A program made the position numbers and the translations under genes. From Nitrospira tepida (GTDB lineage Bacteria; Nitrospirota; Nitrospiria; Nitrospirales; Nitrospiraceae), in the NCBI RefSeq assembly GCF_947241125.1, contig NZ_OX365700.1:4312461-4376460 (forward strand): a DNA stretch of 64,000 bases, given 5' to 3'. The notes under the pieces were generated by a model. That model was not told where the DNA came from, made no database searches, and saw only the letters and a list, made by a program, of their open reading frames with translations. The number at the start of each line of letters is the position of its first letter. The stretch's first letter is position 1. Below, piece after piece: positions 3,243 to 61,251 of this stretch.

Positions 3243-5129
3243 TCACGACGTGCCCTCGGACAGGAAGACGCCGACCCCATAGGCCGGCAGGCTGAGGGTT
3301 GCCCCCCCTGCCGTGATCCGGATCTCAGCCGGAAGCCGGTGCTCTCCTGATCCACCTGATTCAGCGCTCGTCGATTCCAGGAACAGCTTCCACAACCCGG
3401 CCGGCTCGTGGAGCGCGAGCGACACCGGCCTCGGACTGAACCCCAGCAGGATCAGCGCTGACCGTTCCCCCTCGCCATATCGATGGACCGCGAGCACCTG
3501 GGAGGACGCGAATAGCCGGACCTGATGCCGATGCCGGTCCGAAACCGCCGCTCCCAACGACGGGACGCGCTTTCTCAGGTCGATCAGCGTTTTGGTCCAG
3601 CGCAGCAGTTCCGCTTGACGCCCCTGCGCGCGCGTCTCCATCCGCAGGCGCGACCGGTCGAACGTGGCGACGTCCTGCGGATCGGGCAAGTCCTCCCGCC
3701 AGCCGAACGAGGCGAACTCTTCCCGCCTCCCGCGGCGCACCGCTTCGACCAATTGCGGATCGCCGTGCTCGATGAAGTATTGGAACGGCGCGGTCTCCCC
3801 ATATTCTTCGCCCATGAACAGCAACGGCACGCTGGGGCTCAACAGGACGGAGGCCGCGGCGACCTTGAGCGCGTCGAACGGCGCCAACGTGGAGAGACGA
3901 TCGCCCAACGCGCGGTTGCCGATCTGGTCGTGATTCTGCGCGAAGACGACGAACTGCACGGGAGGACGCCCGCGGGAGGCATTGCCGTGCCGCCGCCGCC
4001 GAAACCGCGAATATTGCCCGGCATAGACGAACCCGTCCTGCCACGCCGTCGCCAGATCCGGCAACCCGTGGAAATCCTCATAATAGCCGGCCCGCTCGCT
4101 CACCAGGCTCGTCCGGAGCGCATGGTGAAAGTCGTCGTTCCACTGGGCATCCAACCCGTAGCCCCCCTGATCCCGGGGTGAAATGATTCGGACATCGTTC
4201 AGCGAGCTTTCGGCAATCACCAGGATGCGGCGGCCCAGCCTGGCCGCCTGGTCATGCACGGCCGCGCCGATCTCGTCCAGGATATGTTGGGCGCCGAAAT
4301 CATAGATCCCGTGAATCGCGTCCAGCCGGAGCGCATCGATATGGAAGTCGGTCGTCCAGTAGAGCGCGTTGCTGACGACATAGTGGCGAACCCCATCGCT
4401 GTCCGGACCGTCGTAATTGATGGCCGAGCCCCAAGGCGTCCGGTAATGATCCGTGAAGTAGGGACCGAACTCGCCGAGATAGTTGCCCTCCGGCCCGAGA
4501 TGGTTGTACACGACATCAAGGATCACCGCGAGGCCCTTGGCATGACAGGCATCGACGAGCCGCTTGAGCCCCTGCGGCCCGCCATAGGACGATTGCGGCG
4601 CGTAGGGATAGACGCCGTCGTACCCCCAATTCCGGCGTCCCGGAAATTGCGCGACCGGCATCAGCTCGATCGCCGTGATCCCCACCTCCTGCTTGAGATA
4701 GTCCAACAGTGGAATCACGGCCTCGAAGGTGCCGGCCTGAGTAAAGGTGCCGACGTGCAGCTCGTAGATGATCAGCTCCTCCAGCGGCAACCCCCGCCAG
4801 CCTCGATCGGTCCAGTGAAACGAGGAGTGATCCACGACGGCCGACGCGGCGTGCACCCCCTCCGGTTGAAACTGCGAGGCCGGATCCGGCCGCTCGATCC
4901 GGTCGTCCAGCCGATACAGGTACCGGTCGCCAGGCCGGACCTGCGGCACGACCGCCTCGAAGTAGCCGAAGTCTTGCGGCTTCATCGGTACCAGCCTGGG
5001 AACCGCGCCGGGCAACCGGACCGCCACGTCCTTGGCCCGCGGCGCCCACACGCGGAACCGCGTGGAGTCGTCGCCGAGATAGCGCGCGCTAAGATCGAGC
5101 TGTTTGATCTGCGTAGGATCGTCGGCCAT
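3243..5129 (-). CDS. treZ: Malto-oligosyltrehalose trehalohydrolase (TreZ)
   Basis: A 628-residue GH13 enzyme that releases trehalose from maltooligosyl trehalose, downstream of TreY. The N-terminal CBM48-like domain (RFRVWAPRAKDVAVRL) precedes the TIM barrel. Catalytic regions are visible: DALRLDAIHGIYD with the nucleophile Asp, AESSLND with the acid Glu, and FAQNHDQIGNRALGDR with the transition-state Asp. No treY is in the window. ATG 5129 is chosen because GGAGGG lies five to six bases upstream; an in-frame ATG at 5141 overlaps that Shine-Dalgarno site. The ribosome-binding site is the edge of a dispersed repeat (5136-5183). glgX is divergent, so glycogen breakdown and trehalose synthesis share this region. 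Confidence 0.93.
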   Translation of the reverse strand: MADDPTQIKQLDLSARYLGDDSTRFRVWAPRAKDVAVRLPGAVPRLVPMKPQDFGYFEAVVPQVRPGDRYLYRLDDRIERPDPASQFQPEGVHAASAVVDHSSFHWTDRGWRGLPLEELIIYELHVGTFTQAGTFEAVIPLLDYLKQEVGITAIELMPVAQFPGRRNWGYDGVYPYAPQSSYGGPQGLKRLVDACHAKGLAVILDVVYNHLGPEGNYLGEFGPYFTDHYRTPWGSAINYDGPDSDGVRHYVVSNALYWTTDFHIDALRLDAIHGIYDFGAQHILDEIGAAVHDQAARLGRRILVIAESSLNDVRIISPRDQGGYGLDAQWNDDFHHALRTSLVSERAGYYEDFHGLPDLATAWQDGFVYAGQYSRFRRRRHGNASRGRPPVQFVVFAQNHDQIGNRALGDRLSTLAPFDALKVAAASVLLSPSVPLLFMGEEYGETAPFQYFIEHGDPQLVEAVRRGRREEFASFGWREDLPDPQDVATFDRSRLRMETRAQGRQAELLRWTKTLIDLRKRVPSLGAAVSDRHRHQVRLFASSQVLAVHRYGEGERSALILLGFSPRPVSLALHEPAGLWKLFLESTSAESGGSGEHRLPAEIRITAGGATLSLPAYGVGVFLSEGTS

Positions 5130-5135
5130 AAGACC

Positions 5136-5315
5136 CTCCATACCGAGCTTTGCTAGAGCCGGCGGCTCATCGGGCGTAGCCCCTCTTCATGGGCGCCGCC
5201 GGAGAGACACCTCACGTGGCTTTTCTTTCGCCTTTCTCCATACCGAGCTTTGCTAGAGCCGGCGGCTCATCGGGCGTAGCCCCCTCTATACCAAGCTACG
5301 CTTGAACCGCCGGCT
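5136..5315 (-). repeat. Dispersed repeat units forming the treZ leader
   Basis: A 48-bp exact direct repeat occurs at 5136-5183 and 5236-5283, 100 bp apart; a diverged third core lies at 5284-5315. Read on the minus strand toward treZ, each unit has CCGGCGGC, an inner GGGC-TAC-GCCC hairpin, GCCGCCGG, a small second hairpin, then GGTATGGAG (GGTATAGAG in the third). The second hairpin is AGC-AAA-GCT in the exact copies and CAAGC-GTA-GCTTG in the third. The proximal copy ends in GGTATGGAGGG, which serves as the treZ Shine-Dalgarno site. Related units occur at 9660-9930 and 59584-59755. Confidence 0.9.
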
Positions 5316-5520
5316 ATTCATTGTGCTTTTGTAACTGAGCCGGCGGAGAAGCACCTTGTGCGTGTTCCCATTCTCCGCTTTCATGGGCCGCCGGAGAAAC
5401 CCTGCCAGGGTTCTCCTCGCCCTTCTCCCGATTCAAACTCTGCTTTGCGCAGTCTGCCAGATGCCTCGCGCCTACACCAGCGGCGCCGGAGAATTCCCGG
5501 GCGAGGCCTTGCATAGCAGC
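5316..5520. repeat. Degenerate repeat cores between treZ and glgX
   Basis: This part of the 460-bp divergent gap holds further weak copies of the same family: GCCGGCGGAGAAGCACC near 5339, GCCGCCGGAGAAACCC near 5388 followed by an inverted AACCCTG/CAGGGTT, and GGCGCCGGAGAATTCCC near 5482. I see no gene here. The promoters of treZ and glgX should lie in this gap, but no clear -35/-10 pair could be assigned. Confidence 0.6.
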
Positions 5521-9659: not shown

Positions 9660-9930
9660 AACGTGAGGGGTTTCTCCGGCGGCGTCAACGAAGAAGGGCT
9701 GCGCCCGATGAGCCGCCGGATCTCGCAAAGCGCGGTATGAGACAAGGAAAATCCCTGGTGGGGTTTCTCCGGCGGCGTCAATGAAGAGGGGCTGCGCCCG
9801 ATGAGCCGCCGGATCTCGCAAAGCGCGGTATGAGACAAGGAAAATCCCTGGTGGGGTTTCTCCGGCGGCGTCAATGAAGAGGGGCTGCGCCCGATGAGCC
9901 GCCGGATCTCGCAAAGCGCGGTATGGAGGG
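9660..9930 (+). repeat. 93-bp tandem repeat, three copies, CBS-gene leader
   Basis: Three copies with an exact 93-bp period (the GATGAGCCGCCGG element starts at 9707, 9800 and 9893); the last two are almost identical. Each unit carries TCCGGCGGC, a loop with GGGC-TGC-GCCC, then GCCGCCGGA, a perfect 9-bp inverted pair, followed by CGC-AAA-GCG and GGTATG. The final copy ends GGTATGGAGGG, which is the Shine-Dalgarno site of the CBS gene. It is the same family as 5136-5315, in opposite chromosomal but identical gene-relative orientation. The stretch 9571-9660 before it shows no gene. Confidence 0.92.
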
Positions 9931-9932
9931 AA

Positions 9933-10361
9933 ATGATGACGCTTCAAGGCACCCCCGAGCAAGGTTTTCAAACCGTCAAGGAGATCGTGACCACGAATGC
10001 GCTCTGCTTCCGCGCGGACGCCGACGGTGTTTCCGCCGCCATGGCGCTGTTGACCGCGCATGCGACGGGCGCGCCGGTGGTCGATCACAACGGGGTCCTG
10101 GTCGGATTCGTCAGCGAGTTGGATCTGCTTCGCGCCATGGACCGCGGAGAGCGCCTGGGCGAGCGGCAGGTCGGCGAGATCATGCGCAAGGATCCCATCT
10201 CCATCAGCGAAGACACGCCGTTGGTGACGGCGTCGAGGCTGTTGGACGACTACCGCATTTTGGTCTTGCCCGTGATCAGAGACGGAACGGTCGTCAGTTC
10301 CATCACCCGACACGATCTGTTGCGGGCGCGGGTCGGCCTGGGGCCACAGATAGAAGAATAG
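9933..10361 (+). CDS. CBS-domain pair protein
   Basis: About 142 residues comprising two CBS motifs. The first ends with GAPVVDHNGVLVGFVSELDLLRAM and the second contains VGEIMRKDPISISEDTPLV and ends VLPVIRDGTVVSSITRHDLL. Stand-alone CBS pairs bind adenine nucleotides and sense energy state; no effector domain is attached. Two ATGs at 9933 and 9936 follow GGAGGG of the repeat edge at 9925-9930; the second has more usual spacing. Expression may depend on the repeated leader. Confidence 0.88.
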   Translation: MMTLQGTPEQGFQTVKEIVTTNALCFRADADGVSAAMALLTAHATGAPVVDHNGVLVGFVSELDLLRAMDRGERLGERQVGEIMRKDPISISEDTPLVTASRLLDDYRILVLPVIRDGTVVSSITRHDLLRARVGLGPQIEE

Positions 10362-28633: not shown

Positions 28634-29052
28634 GGGTCGTGGCACGCCGACTCGCGCTGGTGTTTCTGGCCATCGGAGCGGTCGTCGGCACGTTGCTGAT
28701 CCTGACGGTTGAACAGCACCAGGGCACGATCCGCGAGCAGCTTCTTGCCGAACCGACGAGGGCGCCAGACCGGATCAGATCGGCTTTCCTGATCTCGGCA
28801 GTCCTGCTATCGGCGCCGCTCGTGATCTTCGCCGCTTATTTCTGGAACCTCGGCGCCAAGGTCCGTCGCGCCCAACGGTTCCCCCCTCCCAATGTTCGCC
28901 TCATCCGCGACACGCCCGTCGTTTACGGAGAGGAAGCGGCCTTTCGCGCCCGGGGGCTGCAAGCCCTCGCGATGGGCTTGCTGGTATTCACTCTGCTCCT
29001 CCTGCTGCTGTTTTGGTATGTCCTCAGCACACTGAGTGAACGAGCGACCTGA
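28630..29052 (+). CDS. Two-helix membrane protein of unknown function
   Basis: A 140-residue protein with hydrophobic segments near residues 8-26 (LALVFLAIGAVVGTLLIL), 52-72 and 112-132 (ALAMGLLVFTLLLLLLFWY), and a central polar part with FPPPNVRLIRDTPVVYGEEA. No family recognised. Its ATG is the last part of the inverted-repeat element at 28432-28633, so the original N-terminus may have been altered. A diverged second copy of the gene lies at 30868-31231, and the two bracket a group of toxin-antitoxin genes. Confidence 0.6.
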   Translation: MWVVARRLALVFLAIGAVVGTLLILTVEQHQGTIREQLLAEPTRAPDRIRSAFLISAVLLSAPLVIFAAYFWNLGAKVRRAQRFPPPNVRLIRDTPVVYGEEAAFRARGLQALAMGLLVFTLLLLLLFWYVLSTLSERAT

Positions 29053-30867: not shown

Positions 30868-31231
30868 ATTCTGCTGATCCTGGCCGTTGGACAACATCTA
30901 GGGGGCAATTCGCGAGCAGATTCCGTCCGAAGCGACGGACGCAGGCGACCGGATCAGATCGGCCTACTTTTTCTCGTCGGCCCTGTTATCGAAGCTCATC
31001 TTGATCTTCGCCGCGTATTTCTGGAACCTCGGCGCCAAGGTCCGTTGCGCCCAACGGTTCCCCCCTCCCAATGTTCGCCTCATCCGCGACATGCCCGTGG
31101 TTTACGGAGCGGAAGCGGCCTTTCGCGCCCGGGTGCTGCAAGCCCTCGCATTAGGACTGCTCGTCCTCACCGGGCTCCTGCTTGCGGCATTCTGGTACCT
31201 CGCCGCAACGTTGGGCGGGCGCGCGGTCTGA
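30868..31231 (+). pseudogene. Decayed second copy of the two-helix membrane protein gene
   Basis: The 3' part from about 31001 is nearly identical to 28820-29052 at DNA and protein level (FAAYFWNLGAKVRCAQRFPP, NVRLIRDMPVVYGAEAAFRA). Upstream, recognisable DNA such as CTGCTGATCCTG and GCGAGCAG continues to about 30868, but small insertions and deletions break the frame and no start remains. The two copies are direct repeats roughly 2.2 kb apart. The 190 bp before it (30681-30867) holds nothing I can name. Confidence 0.75.
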
Positions 31232-58017: not shown

Positions 58018-59385
58018 TCATGAAAGATCGAAATGCTCCCGCAGCTTCGCATAGTCATAGGCCGGGGTTCCGGTGCGGCGCTTCCCCAGATCGTCCCGTT
58101 CCAACTGCGCGATCAGTTCGGCCACCTGCCGCCGCTTGACGGGATCGGCGGCGGCATGGCGCGGGGTCTGGACTCCAAGCGCGGGTGAGGCCGTGTCGGG
58201 CCAGGTCAAGTACACGGACTCCAAAAATGACCGCAACAGGTCCCGCTCCTCTTCCGGGGTGACCGTCAGTTGATAGGATTCGGTTTTGGCGAGGTCTTCC
58301 TCGGTCACCCGCCGAGGCGGCGGCGCGGTCGTTTCGCCGCGAAAGTGCAAGGCATAGCCGAAGGCGGAGGCCAGTTGGTGCTTGAGAGTTTCGAGCCGAT
58401 CAGGCGCATCGCATTCCACGATCAACTGCACGGGCGTCACGGTGATCCGGGCGACCAGCGACGGGGTGCGAAATTCCCAGATCCTCGCGGGCGGTTTCCC
58501 GTCCTGTCCCTTCTCGCCCTGCTCGCCGGTCCGGTCCTGAACCGGATCGAAGCCCTTCAACTCTGCCATGCCGTCGCACAGGAATCGAAACTCATGGTGC
58601 TCGTAAAGCGCCACCGCATAGAGAAAGGGCCGGCCTTCCGGGGTGACGTACCGGATCTGGACCACCGCCTCGACCAGGGCGTCATATCTGGCCTGGGCGT
58701 AGCCCCAGAGCAGGACTTGCCCGTACCGTTTCGCGAACTCGGCCCATTCGCCGAGCGCGAAGGAGCCCGATTGCATTTCAAGCGTGCGTCTGGTCTCTTG
58801 AACCGACTCGATCAGGCTCTGGCCATCGGCAGCCGACAGCCGGAGCGCGCAGCCGGCGATGACGAATCGTTCGTTCTCCGGCGAAGGATTACGGACCAGA
58901 CGCGTCAGCAGCGCCTCGCCCACGGGAATGGTTTTCAGTATGGCGCTCCCCACGACAGTCCACTGCCGCCCGTCTCCCAACGAGCGGAGCGTGAGTCGCA
59001 CGGCGGCATCGCTCTCTTCCGCCCGCACGATTTCGAGCAAATCGAGGAAGGAGTGCTTCAGCGGGTCCATCCAGACCCGTTCCTCCTCCGGAATATGCTC
59101 GGTGACCACATCGCGCAACTGCTCGATCAGCGTCAACTGGCCGTCTTGCGGATAGTAGTCGGCATAGAGGAAGAGGTTCGCGAGCTGCACCTCCTGCGGC
59201 AAGGGAGCCAGCACCGAGCCTTCGCGGCGCTGCACGTAGGGCCGCAGCGCCTCGTTCAGGGCCAGTTCCCGCTGGAGCGCAAATCCGGACGCCCGGGCCA
59301 GATCATCGAGCCGCGCCAACAAGGCATCCAACGACTCGGGAACCTCGACCCAGACGCCGGCCGTCAGCTCACTCGCGAGCTTCAT
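58018..59385 (-). CDS. Hypothetical protein
   Basis: A 455-residue protein without a recognised domain. It contains many short helices and several charged segments, among them PQDGQLTLIEQLRDVVTEHI and RYGQVLLWGYAQARYDALVE, and a Pro-rich stretch TTAPPPRRV. No signal peptide or membrane segment is seen, so it is likely cytoplasmic. ATG 59385 overlaps the end of the DUF2934 gene by 17 bp and has GGAAGAG upstream. The pair seems to be one operon. Confidence 0.75.
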   Translation of the reverse strand: MKLASELTAGVWVEVPESLDALLARLDDLARASGFALQRELALNEALRPYVQRREGSVLAPLPQEVQLANLFLYADYYPQDGQLTLIEQLRDVVTEHIPEEERVWMDPLKHSFLDLLEIVRAEESDAAVRLTLRSLGDGRQWTVVGSAILKTIPVGEALLTRLVRNPSPENERFVIAGCALRLSAADGQSLIESVQETRRTLEMQSGSFALGEWAEFAKRYGQVLLWGYAQARYDALVEAVVQIRYVTPEGRPFLYAVALYEHHEFRFLCDGMAELKGFDPVQDRTGEQGEKGQDGKPPARIWEFRTPSLVARITVTPVQLIVECDAPDRLETLKHQLASAFGYALHFRGETTAPPPRRVTEEDLAKTESYQLTVTPEEERDLLRSFLESVYLTWPDTASPALGVQTPRHAAADPVKRRQVAELIAQLERDDLGKRRTGTPAYDYAKLREHFDLS

Positions 59386-59587
59386 GGATCTCTTCCATGA
59401 CGCTCGTCTCGGCCTCCAGCCAATCCTCCAGCGCATAGCCTTCGCGCCGGCCCCGCTGTTCCCAGAGTTCGTGGGCCTTGCTCTGGATCCGCTCCCACAT
59501 CCCTTCCGGCAGCTCGATAGGCTGGCTCTTGGAGCCGGACTGTGCCCGCCGTGGAGCCTTCCCTGCTTTCTTTGCCGCTACACTCAT
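59369..59587 (-). CDS. DUF2934 family small protein
   Basis: A 72-residue protein: a basic Ala/Lys start (MSVAAKKAGKAPRRAQ) and a DUF2934 core (RIQSKAHELWEQRGRREGYA, LEDWLEAETSVMEE). The family's function is unknown. ATG 59587 is selected because GGAGGG lies four bases upstream; this Shine-Dalgarno site is the edge of a dispersed repeat unit, as in treZ and the CBS gene. An in-frame ATG at 59599 falls inside the repeat edge. Confidence 0.82.
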   Translation of the reverse strand: MSVAAKKAGKAPRRAQSGSKSQPIELPEGMWERIQSKAHELWEQRGRREGYALEDWLEAETSVMEEIHEARE

Positions 59588-59755
59588 TGTTCCCTCCATA
59601 CCAACCCTCGGTTGAACCGGCGGCTCTATACCAACCTTGGTTGAACCGCCCGCTCTTTATCGCTGTATCGAATATGATGCGGGCGGAGATTCCCCTTAAG
59701 ACGGCTTTATTACGGCGCCGGAGAGACTCCTCACGTGCTTCTTCTCTTTCGGCTC
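59584..59755 (-). repeat. Third locus of the dispersed repeat family, DUF2934 leader
   Basis: Read on the minus strand toward the DUF2934 gene: AGCACGTGAGGAGTCTCTCC then GGCGCCG, an inverted pair CCGCCCGC/GCGGGCGG, GGTTCAACC-AA-GGTTGGTATAG, GAGCCGCCGG, and TTCAACC-GAG-GGTTGGTATGG then AGGG. The stems CAACC/GGTTG differ in sequence from the AGC/GCT, CGC/GCG and CAAGC/GCTTG stems of the other loci but occupy the same position before GGTATGGAG. This copy is more diverged than the others. Confidence 0.8.
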
Positions 59756-60251
59756 AGTCCACCCGGATCGTCCGCTCCTTGCGCTTGGCTTCCTCTGTCT
59801 TCGGCAGGCGAATCTCCAGCACGCCGTCTTTGAACGACGCCTTCACCTTGTCCGCTTGGACCTCGGACGGCAACTCAATCACCCGGCGGAACAGGCCGTG
59901 AGACCGTTCCATCCGGTAATAGTCCTTTTCTTTCACCTCTGCTTCTTTCTTCTTCTCGCCCCGCAGGGTCAGTGTCGTGTCGGACAGATTGACCTCGATG
60001 TCTTCCTTGCTCATGCCCGGCAGGTCCGCCTTCACCACGATGTCGCCTTTGTCCTCGAAGAGGTCCACGCGGGGCGTCGGAACCGGCCAATCCTTCGGCA
60101 GGCCCCATCGCTCCGGGTTCAACAGGCTCCCGAACGGCCGCTTCAAAAGTTCATCGACCAGCGAGCCAAAGTCTCGGTCGAACACGCTCGGCAGGCCGCT
60201 TTCCTTGACTGGCGTGAGCTCTGTGCGGCCTTTGGATTTTGCTTTTGCCAT
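59754..60251 (-). CDS. Hsp20/alpha-crystallin small heat shock protein
   Basis: A 165-residue small heat shock protein. The alpha-crystallin domain runs from PRVDLFEDKGDIVVKADLPG to the conserved VKASFKDGVLEIRLPKTEE (A-x-x-x-n-G-v-L). A C-terminal IRV forms the short IxV tail motif. It prevents aggregation as an ATP-independent holdase. ATG 60251 has GGAGG nine bases upstream. Confidence 0.95.
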   Translation of the reverse strand: MAKAKSKGRTELTPVKESGLPSVFDRDFGSLVDELLKRPFGSLLNPERWGLPKDWPVPTPRVDLFEDKGDIVVKADLPGMSKEDIEVNLSDTTLTLRGEKKKEAEVKEKDYYRMERSHGLFRRVIELPSEVQADKVKASFKDGVLEIRLPKTEEAKRKERTIRVD

Positions 60252-60303
60252 CGATCGTTCCTCCTTTCTGCGGGGCATGCCGCGCACCACGACATACAGA
60301 CCA

Positions 60304-61251
60304 TCACGTCGCAGGTTTGAACTTCGGGCTGCGGACGGTAAAGACGGGGCAATCGGCATAGCGGATGACCGCTTCTGCCACGCTGCCGAATCGAAGTTGA
60401 GACCATCCGCGCCGGCCGTGCGTGCCCATGACGATCGCGTCGCTGCCCCGCTCCTGCGCGACCAGCCGGATCACATCGCCCGGGATGCCGGATCGCACCT
60501 CGTGGCGCGCGCTCAACCCTCGTCCCGAGAACAACCCGGCCAACTGGGCCATCGACTCCTCGCATTGTTTGCGGAAGGCCTGCCCGGTCAGGGCATGGCC
60601 CAGGGTGAAGTCCAGCCCATAGGCGACCGGCTCCGCGACATGCAGCAGCGTGACCTCGCTCCCGAACCGGTCGGCCAATTGCACGGCATATTCGACCGCC
60701 GACCGCCCGCAATCGCTGAAATCCACCGCGACCAGCAGTGCGCGTAATCCATTGCCGGTTTCCGTCGTCCTGGCGGCGCTCGGCTCGCGACCAGCCGCCC
60801 TCGACCCCCGCACGGTCGCGACGGGACAGGGAGCCCCTCGCACGACCCGTTCGGCCGTGCTGCCGATCAGCACATGTTCGAATCCGGTTCGCCCGTGCGT
60901 CCCGACCACGACCAGATCGTGGCGAGACCGTTCGGCCAACGCGATGATTTCCCGGCTGGGAATCCCGACGGATTCGTGCCGCTCGATCTTGACGCCGGCT
61001 GCTTCGGCCCGTTGGATCAATGCCGCGCCCTGTTCCCTGATCTCGCGCCGCCGGTCTTCGAGATACCGGCGGTTGACGTCGTACTCCAGATCCCGCCCCG
61101 GTTCGAATTCCAGCACCGACAGGGCGTCCAATCTCGCGTCATAGGCCGCCGCCATCATCAGCGCGAACGATTCCGCCTCCTTCGCCGAGGCGGACCCATC
61201 CGTGGCCAGAAGAATCTTCGAAACAGCCGATCCCGTCGCACCGACGCTCAT
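60304..61251 (-). CDS. Universal stress protein, two UspA domains
   Basis: A 315-residue tandem UspA protein: KILLATDGSASAKEAESFAL with the loop VVGTHGRTGFEHVLIGSTAE, and second domain ALLVAVDFSDCGRSAVEYAV with VMGTHGRRGWSQLRFGSVAE. Both nucleotide loops have the G-x2-G-x9-G(S/T) pattern. AAAGGAG precedes ATG 61251. Three Usp genes in 3.3 kb here, plus an Hsp20 gene, point to a stress-response cluster. Confidence 0.93.
   Translation of the reverse strand: MSVGATGSAVSKILLATDGSASAKEAESFALMMAAAYDARLDALSVLEFEPGRDLEYDVNRRYLEDRRREIREQGAALIQRAEAAGVKIERHESVGIPSREIIALAERSRHDLVVVGTHGRTGFEHVLIGSTAERVVRGAPCPVATVRGSRAAGREPSAARTTETGNGLRALLVAVDFSDCGRSAVEYAVQLADRFGSEVTLLHVAEPVAYGLDFTLGHALTGQAFRKQCEESMAQLAGLFSGRGLSARHEVRSGIPGDVIRLVAQERGSDAIVMGTHGRRGWSQLRFGSVAEAVIRYADCPVFTVRSPKFKPAT

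Follow-up and report, generated by a model that had tools for sequence, protein, structure and literature searches.

We asked what the short palindromic units are that end directly beside start codons at three loci in a 64-kb stretch of Nitrospira tepida DNA (GCF_947241125.1, NZ_OX365700.1, positions 4,312,461-4,376,460; hereafter the window), part of a complete genome of 4.73 Mb. A sequence-only reading had proposed that they are a new structured leader RNA or, alternatively, a REP-type element. A full unit is ~70-100 nt long and is built of an outer palindrome, an optional inner hairpin, a small second hairpin (hairpin 2) and the end GGTAT, with the layout TTTCTCC-GGCGGC-(loop, often GGGGCTTCGCCC)-GCCGCCGG-TTC-AAGC-GAA-GCTT-GGTAT, followed by GGAG. 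The inner GGGC/GCCC hairpin that had been described as usual holds as one of two loop types and not as a general rule, and a third hairpin upstream of TTTCTCC gave a weak signal and was not accepted. At all three loci the units end in GGTATGGAG adjoining the start codon, a sequence that is not diagnostic by itself (15 matches with at most one mismatch vs. 8.9 expected). No family reached its cut-off when the window was scanned against Rfam at gathering thresholds.

We built a covariance model, R1, from 39 copies of the unit. At locus 1 (5136-5352, minus strand) the gene-proximal unit is complete (5136-5208; R1 79.0 bits and sequence), and its GGAG is the Shine-Dalgarno sequence of the gene starting at 5129. 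Farther from the gene lie a 3' half-unit with a GGTATGGAG end (5236-5280, minus strand; R1 half-unit match of 25 bits and sequence) and a unit with a long unstructured loop and a GGTATAGAG end (5284-5352, minus strand; 69.7 bits). The gene 3' of these units is an open reading frame of 628 aa (3243-5129, minus strand), which from its sequence we take to be alpha-amylase-like, of the TreZ type. Locus 2 (9670-9928, plus strand) carries three units in tandem with a 93-nt period, at 9670-9742 (tail GGTATGAGA; 75.3 bits), 9763-9835 (76.2 bits) and 9856-9928 (82.6 bits), the scores thus increasing in the direction of the gene. The GGAG of the gene-proximal unit (9925-9928) is the Shine-Dalgarno sequence of an open reading frame of 142 aa (9933-10361, plus strand), presumably CBS-domain-like as judged from its sequence. 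Locus 3 (59594-59692, minus strand) consists of a unit with the stem CCGCCCGC/GCGGGCGG and the tail GGTATAGAG (59624-59692, minus strand; 63.0 bits) and of a 3' half-unit recognised from its sequence, CCGCCGG-TTC-hairpin-GGTATGGAG (59594-59623, minus strand), whose GGAG is the Shine-Dalgarno sequence of a 72-aa gene starting at 59587 (59369-59587, minus strand). An Hsp20-like gene lies upstream (59754-60359, minus strand). The three loci match their earlier description, each ending next to a start codon; complete units are present, and some of the units then listed are 3' half-units (5236-5280 and 59594-59623). Elsewhere in the window, a 300-nt direct repeat with 81% identity (28721-29020 and 30900-31199) has its two copies 2179 nt apart.

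The units are widely dispersed and withstood the check for further copies in related genomes that the earlier reading had set. Searching the whole genome with R1 gave 140 matches at 69 places (best E = 3.5e-24), none of which had mixed strands. Seventeen of these matches are a 56-nt short form inside a larger conserved repeat, while the remaining 123 copies make up 57 clusters, each with one orientation throughout. A pattern search for the 3' half found 74 places at up to three mismatches, compared with 2 for the reversed pattern. Matches were present in 31 of 37 Nitrospiraceae genomes including N. tepida itself, with 0-76 copies per genome in the relatives. Outside the Nitrospiraceae, matches were rare, single and marginal and fell within one neighbouring family; all named records with matches were Nitrospira, Nitrospiraceae or Nitrospirae, and a search of viral contigs with the unit gave no match.

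Two other repeats were seen alongside the unit. The larger repeat, at 17 places (e.g., L057, L062, L066 and L068), starts with TA(A/G)CCCGCATTATTCATGAACGCTTCTGCTGC and extends over several hundred bases with a short-loop unit inside; the 56-nt matches are also common in genomes G004, G018, G019 and G030. A second dispersed palindromic repeat, CTC(A/G)ACGTAC...GTACGCCTCNGG...TGCGGCC, is distinct from the unit and is found upstream of leuA in relatives (L163, L164, L177 and L179) and after the 56-nt form in the N. tepida genome.

The conserved pairing with compensatory changes, on which the idea of a structured RNA had been based, is real. Of the cells in the 39-copy alignment, 91.5% are paired; the covariation score is 0.208 vs. 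0.064 in shuffles (0/500), with slid-partner controls scoring no more than 0.04. A set of 147 distinct copies spanning several genera scored 0.356 vs. 0.091 (0/500), with changes on both sides at 7 of the 8 outer-stem pairs, in an alignment that was itself fitted to the model. The covariation is genuine, yet it would look no different if the hairpins served the mobility of DNA and not an RNA. We considered the share of GU pairs as a way of separating selection on RNA from selection on DNA, and dropped it because wobble pairs are as rare in the tRNA acceptor stems at those loci (0.9%) as in the outer stem (0.8%).

Where the units end was read from the last copy of every cluster in the N. tepida genome (57 clusters). 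In approximately 37 of these the last unit runs exactly up to a Shine-Dalgarno GGAG, which a spacer of mostly 4-10 nt separates from the start codon. A script recognised GGAG, or a close variant of it, ahead of an open reading frame in 35 clusters, of which the one at 2260051 is doubtful, and the clusters at 4372084, 4457806 and 3789312 were added since they reach the start codon via an extra half-unit. A tRNA or tmRNA gene adjoins 14 clusters, and in 13 cases the units are antisense and stop exactly at the 3' CCA. ARAGORN calls a tRNA gene at nine of the 14; eight of these clusters are antisense at the CCA end, and the ninth, with GGAG, is at the 5' end of tRNA-Ser. One cluster adjoins tmRNA, and four adjoin the 3' half of a tRNA; at three of these half-tRNA sites (Glu-CTC, Arg-CCT and Gly-CCC) a relative has an intact gene with a unit in the same place. 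Identical junction types were found in several other genera. Hairpin 2 is followed by GGTAT and then by GGNG of the target; the reverse strand reads CTCCATACC. The motif on the target side is a fixed GG(N)G. On the left, GGAG precedes 13 of the 57 first copies, compared with 5-10 in control windows, and is clear at a few sites only, so that a general target duplication found no support beyond those sites. With regard to a preference for the lagging-strand template, a trait of IS200/IS605-type elements, 36 of the 57 clusters lie on one strand as defined by replication (P = 0.06), a count that is confounded by gene orientation. For a bacterial repeat, it is unusual to meet Shine-Dalgarno sequences and the 3' ends of tRNAs this precisely.

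The tRNA sites had two further peculiarities. The four tRNA 3' halves beside units (Arg, Arg-CCT, Gly-CCC and Glu-CTC; L064, L081 and L095 at ~2000 and L111 at ~2427) are broken at approximately the anticodon loop and resemble what is left of attachment sites where genomic islands have integrated into tRNA genes. In genome G022 (L144, ~1380-1760), a short 3' piece of tRNA-Arg stands behind every tandem unit, so the tRNA ends were duplicated jointly with the unit.

Comparison of orthologous sites across genera showed that the unit stands beside the start codons of leuA, yajQ and treZ in the N. tepida genome only. In N. tepida, leuA is preceded by a conserved T-box leader (RF00230; L161 1134-1365, 86.1 bits, E = 2.1e-19, just below the Rfam cut-off of 93), GGAGG, the unit (L161 1421-1493), a second GGAGG and the start codon. 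Its relatives have no unit next to the start at any of 29 leuA loci, and the T-box terminator leads to the Shine-Dalgarno sequence and ATG with no unit between them; one relative has a 56-nt-type copy farther upstream. Similarly, yajQ is preceded by GGAGG-unit-GGAGG in N. tepida and by a plain Shine-Dalgarno sequence in relatives, and the unit was absent at all 15 loci of homologues of treZ, the gene at locus 1. The 72-aa gene of locus 3 has a unit in N. tepida and in one other genus only, with different upstream neighbours. A thermosensor role, suggested by the adjacent Hsp20-like gene, was dropped since in relatives the 72-aa gene is not beside Hsp20 and all but one lack the unit. The units were therefore added in particular lineages, ahead of genes that already existed. 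These genes share no functional theme, and we take them, from sequence and general knowledge, to include a LeuA-type synthase, YajQ, FlgM-/FlgJ-like proteins, glutathione peroxidase, OmpA-/TolC-like proteins and CBS proteins.

Within arrays, copies differ with position. Among the 34 clusters with several copies, 27 have a higher R1 score for the gene-proximal copy than for the one farthest from the gene (P = 0.0008; Wilcoxon P = 0.0003), and the mean R1 score declines from 71.9 bits beside the target to 46.6 bits at the fifth position. This polarity agrees with insertion recurring at one and the same GGAG, which is retained, and also with selective upkeep of the last copy.

Do the units then act as cis-regulatory elements of 5' UTRs, with translation of the gene behind them governed by the hairpin next to the Shine-Dalgarno sequence? 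Like leader RNAs such as the leuA T-box, they are structured, covary strongly and lie in sense exactly ahead of the Shine-Dalgarno sequence in ~37 of the 57 clusters, and the leuA unit must be part of a transcribed leader, as it is located downstream of the T-box. Yet the copies at tRNA ends are mostly antisense, and a quarter of the clusters adjoin tRNA or tmRNA genes; the genes behind the units have no function in common, orthologues of leuA, yajQ and treZ do without the unit, no Rfam match was found in the window, and tandem arrays contain decaying copies. Computed accessibility of the Shine-Dalgarno sequence is also alike with and without units (0.44 vs. 0.41). We thus consider a leader RNA quite unlikely, and these comparisons give no support to a new one as the main explanation. 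Another reading has a mobile repeat being taken over by its host and kept at tRNA/tmRNA ends and before some genes, where it would aid 3' processing, termination or translation. Loci of tmRNA, tRNA-Met, tRNA-Pro (two), Glu(CTC), Gly(CCC), Arg(CCT) and Ser(TGA) are occupied in more than one genus, some of these multi-genus sites having syntenic flanks, and a glutathione-peroxidase-like gene and the 72-aa gene each carry a unit in one other genus. However, sites in relatives were sampled by score and not randomly, and the stems differ at shared sites, so that independent insertion is possible. Such a take-over seems unlikely, but may have occurred at the tRNA loci shared between genera; that several genera have units at the same tRNA sites, and at a few of the same genes, could reflect long retention or function.

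The units are probably a Nitrospiraceae family of small non-autonomous mobile DNA hairpin repeats that are moved in trans. Their dispersal, exact 3' junctions, unit-free orthologous sites, single orientation per cluster and array age polarity were observed directly. The GGTAT end is joined directly to a target starting with GG, usually the Shine-Dalgarno GGAG of a gene (in sense) or the complement of the 3' CCA of a tRNA or tmRNA (in antisense). In the process that we envisage, copies would move as single-stranded or extruded DNA hairpins that a trans-acting enzyme recognises. Because the GGAG next to the start codon is kept, the same site could be used again; arrays would thereby grow head to tail, the newest copy being nearest the gene, and translation would remain intact. 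Arrays may also have grown via tandem duplication.

Which known system, if any, such a mobile repeat belongs to was assessed from its structure and from the distribution of candidate enzymes, and no mobilising gene was found when the distributions of genes for the REP-associated tyrosine transposase (RAYT, or TnpA-REP) and for reverse transcriptases were tested across genomes. In appearance the units resemble REP, BIME and REPIN sequences, which are likewise short imperfect palindromes, intergenic, high in copy number, family-specific, present as singletons and tandem groups, and maintained in their stems by Watson-Crick covariation. Clustered, intergenic, palindromic units in many copies are what one would expect of a classical REP/REPIN family that depends on a RAYT of its own genome, and N. 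tepida does have RAYT-like genes (NF047646, best 87.6 bits). REP hairpins have a tetranucleotide at their foot (PMC6006769), and here too a short target motif flanks the hairpin. However, the unit ends in GGTAT and not in a GTAG/GTGG foot, has a second hairpin, meets Shine-Dalgarno sequences and tRNA 3' ends at its junctions, and forms head-to-tail arrays only, with no alternating orientation. In the N. tepida genome no R1 match lies within 1.5 kb of any Y1 gene, genomes with 76, 55, 39, 27 and 24 copies (some of them drafts) have no NF047646 match, and RAYT genes do not correlate with copy number (Spearman rho 0.12, P = 0.47). The earlier alternative of a REP-type element is therefore apt in so far as the repeat is dispersed, intergenic, palindromic and patchy; it behaves like a REP or miniature element, but lacks the GTAG motif and RAYT genes that track its copies, and a classical RAYT-mobilised family is improbable. 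Two neighbouring, identically scoring Y1 transposase genes of 311 aa with a DnaA-like C-terminal stretch (L010 and L011, G000:C1:3240635-3242857) were also noted.

Miniature elements derived from IS200/IS605, which transpose as single strands, share subterminal hairpins, the lack of terminal inverted repeats and one end at a short target motif. For the unit, in contrast, this motif is short and loose (GG and then often NG), no parental insertion sequence was seen, and the RAYT-type Y1 genes, the type surveyed, do not track copies. Bacterial MITEs such as Correia, RUP and ERIC are also small non-autonomous repeats near genes, but the unit has no terminal inverted repeats of the whole unit and no TA duplication; a 2024 review of prokaryotic MITEs does not mention targeting of Shine-Dalgarno sequences or tRNA ends (PMC10969869). 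Lastly, the repeat could spread like a retroelement, with a reverse transcriptase turning its RNA into DNA at the target sites. Priming at the target would agree with the exact 3' junctions, the less clear 5' ends and the complementarity of the 3' tail to CTCC or NCCA. This, however, is already contradicted by the distribution of reverse transcriptases, unless the enzyme was lost: an RVT_1 match is absent from 8 of the 9 genomes with at least 20 copies, and reverse transcriptases do not correlate with copy number. We regard it as extremely improbable. Both RAYT and reverse transcriptase were rejected as mobilisers since their distributions do not fit copy number, although drafts may miss genes and an enzyme may be lost after expansion.

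We tentatively raise the possibility that this is a new kind of mobile repeat, steered on insertion to sites of translation initiation and to the 3' ends of tRNAs. Its enzyme would then lie outside REP, IS200/IS605 and retroelement systems as now known, and might recognise the anti-Shine-Dalgarno-like CCTCC and NCCA motifs either in single-stranded DNA or as RNA 3' ends. Our literature search found no description of such repeats in Nitrospira or of repeats targeted to Shine-Dalgarno sequences, with most subscription papers outside its reach. As a family of mobile repeats, the units would be an example from nature of structured RNA being added to many 5' leaders by insertions that leave the ribosome-binding site untouched. 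Their hosts are a group central to nitrification, in which the enzyme that would mobilise the units is a concrete and searchable question.
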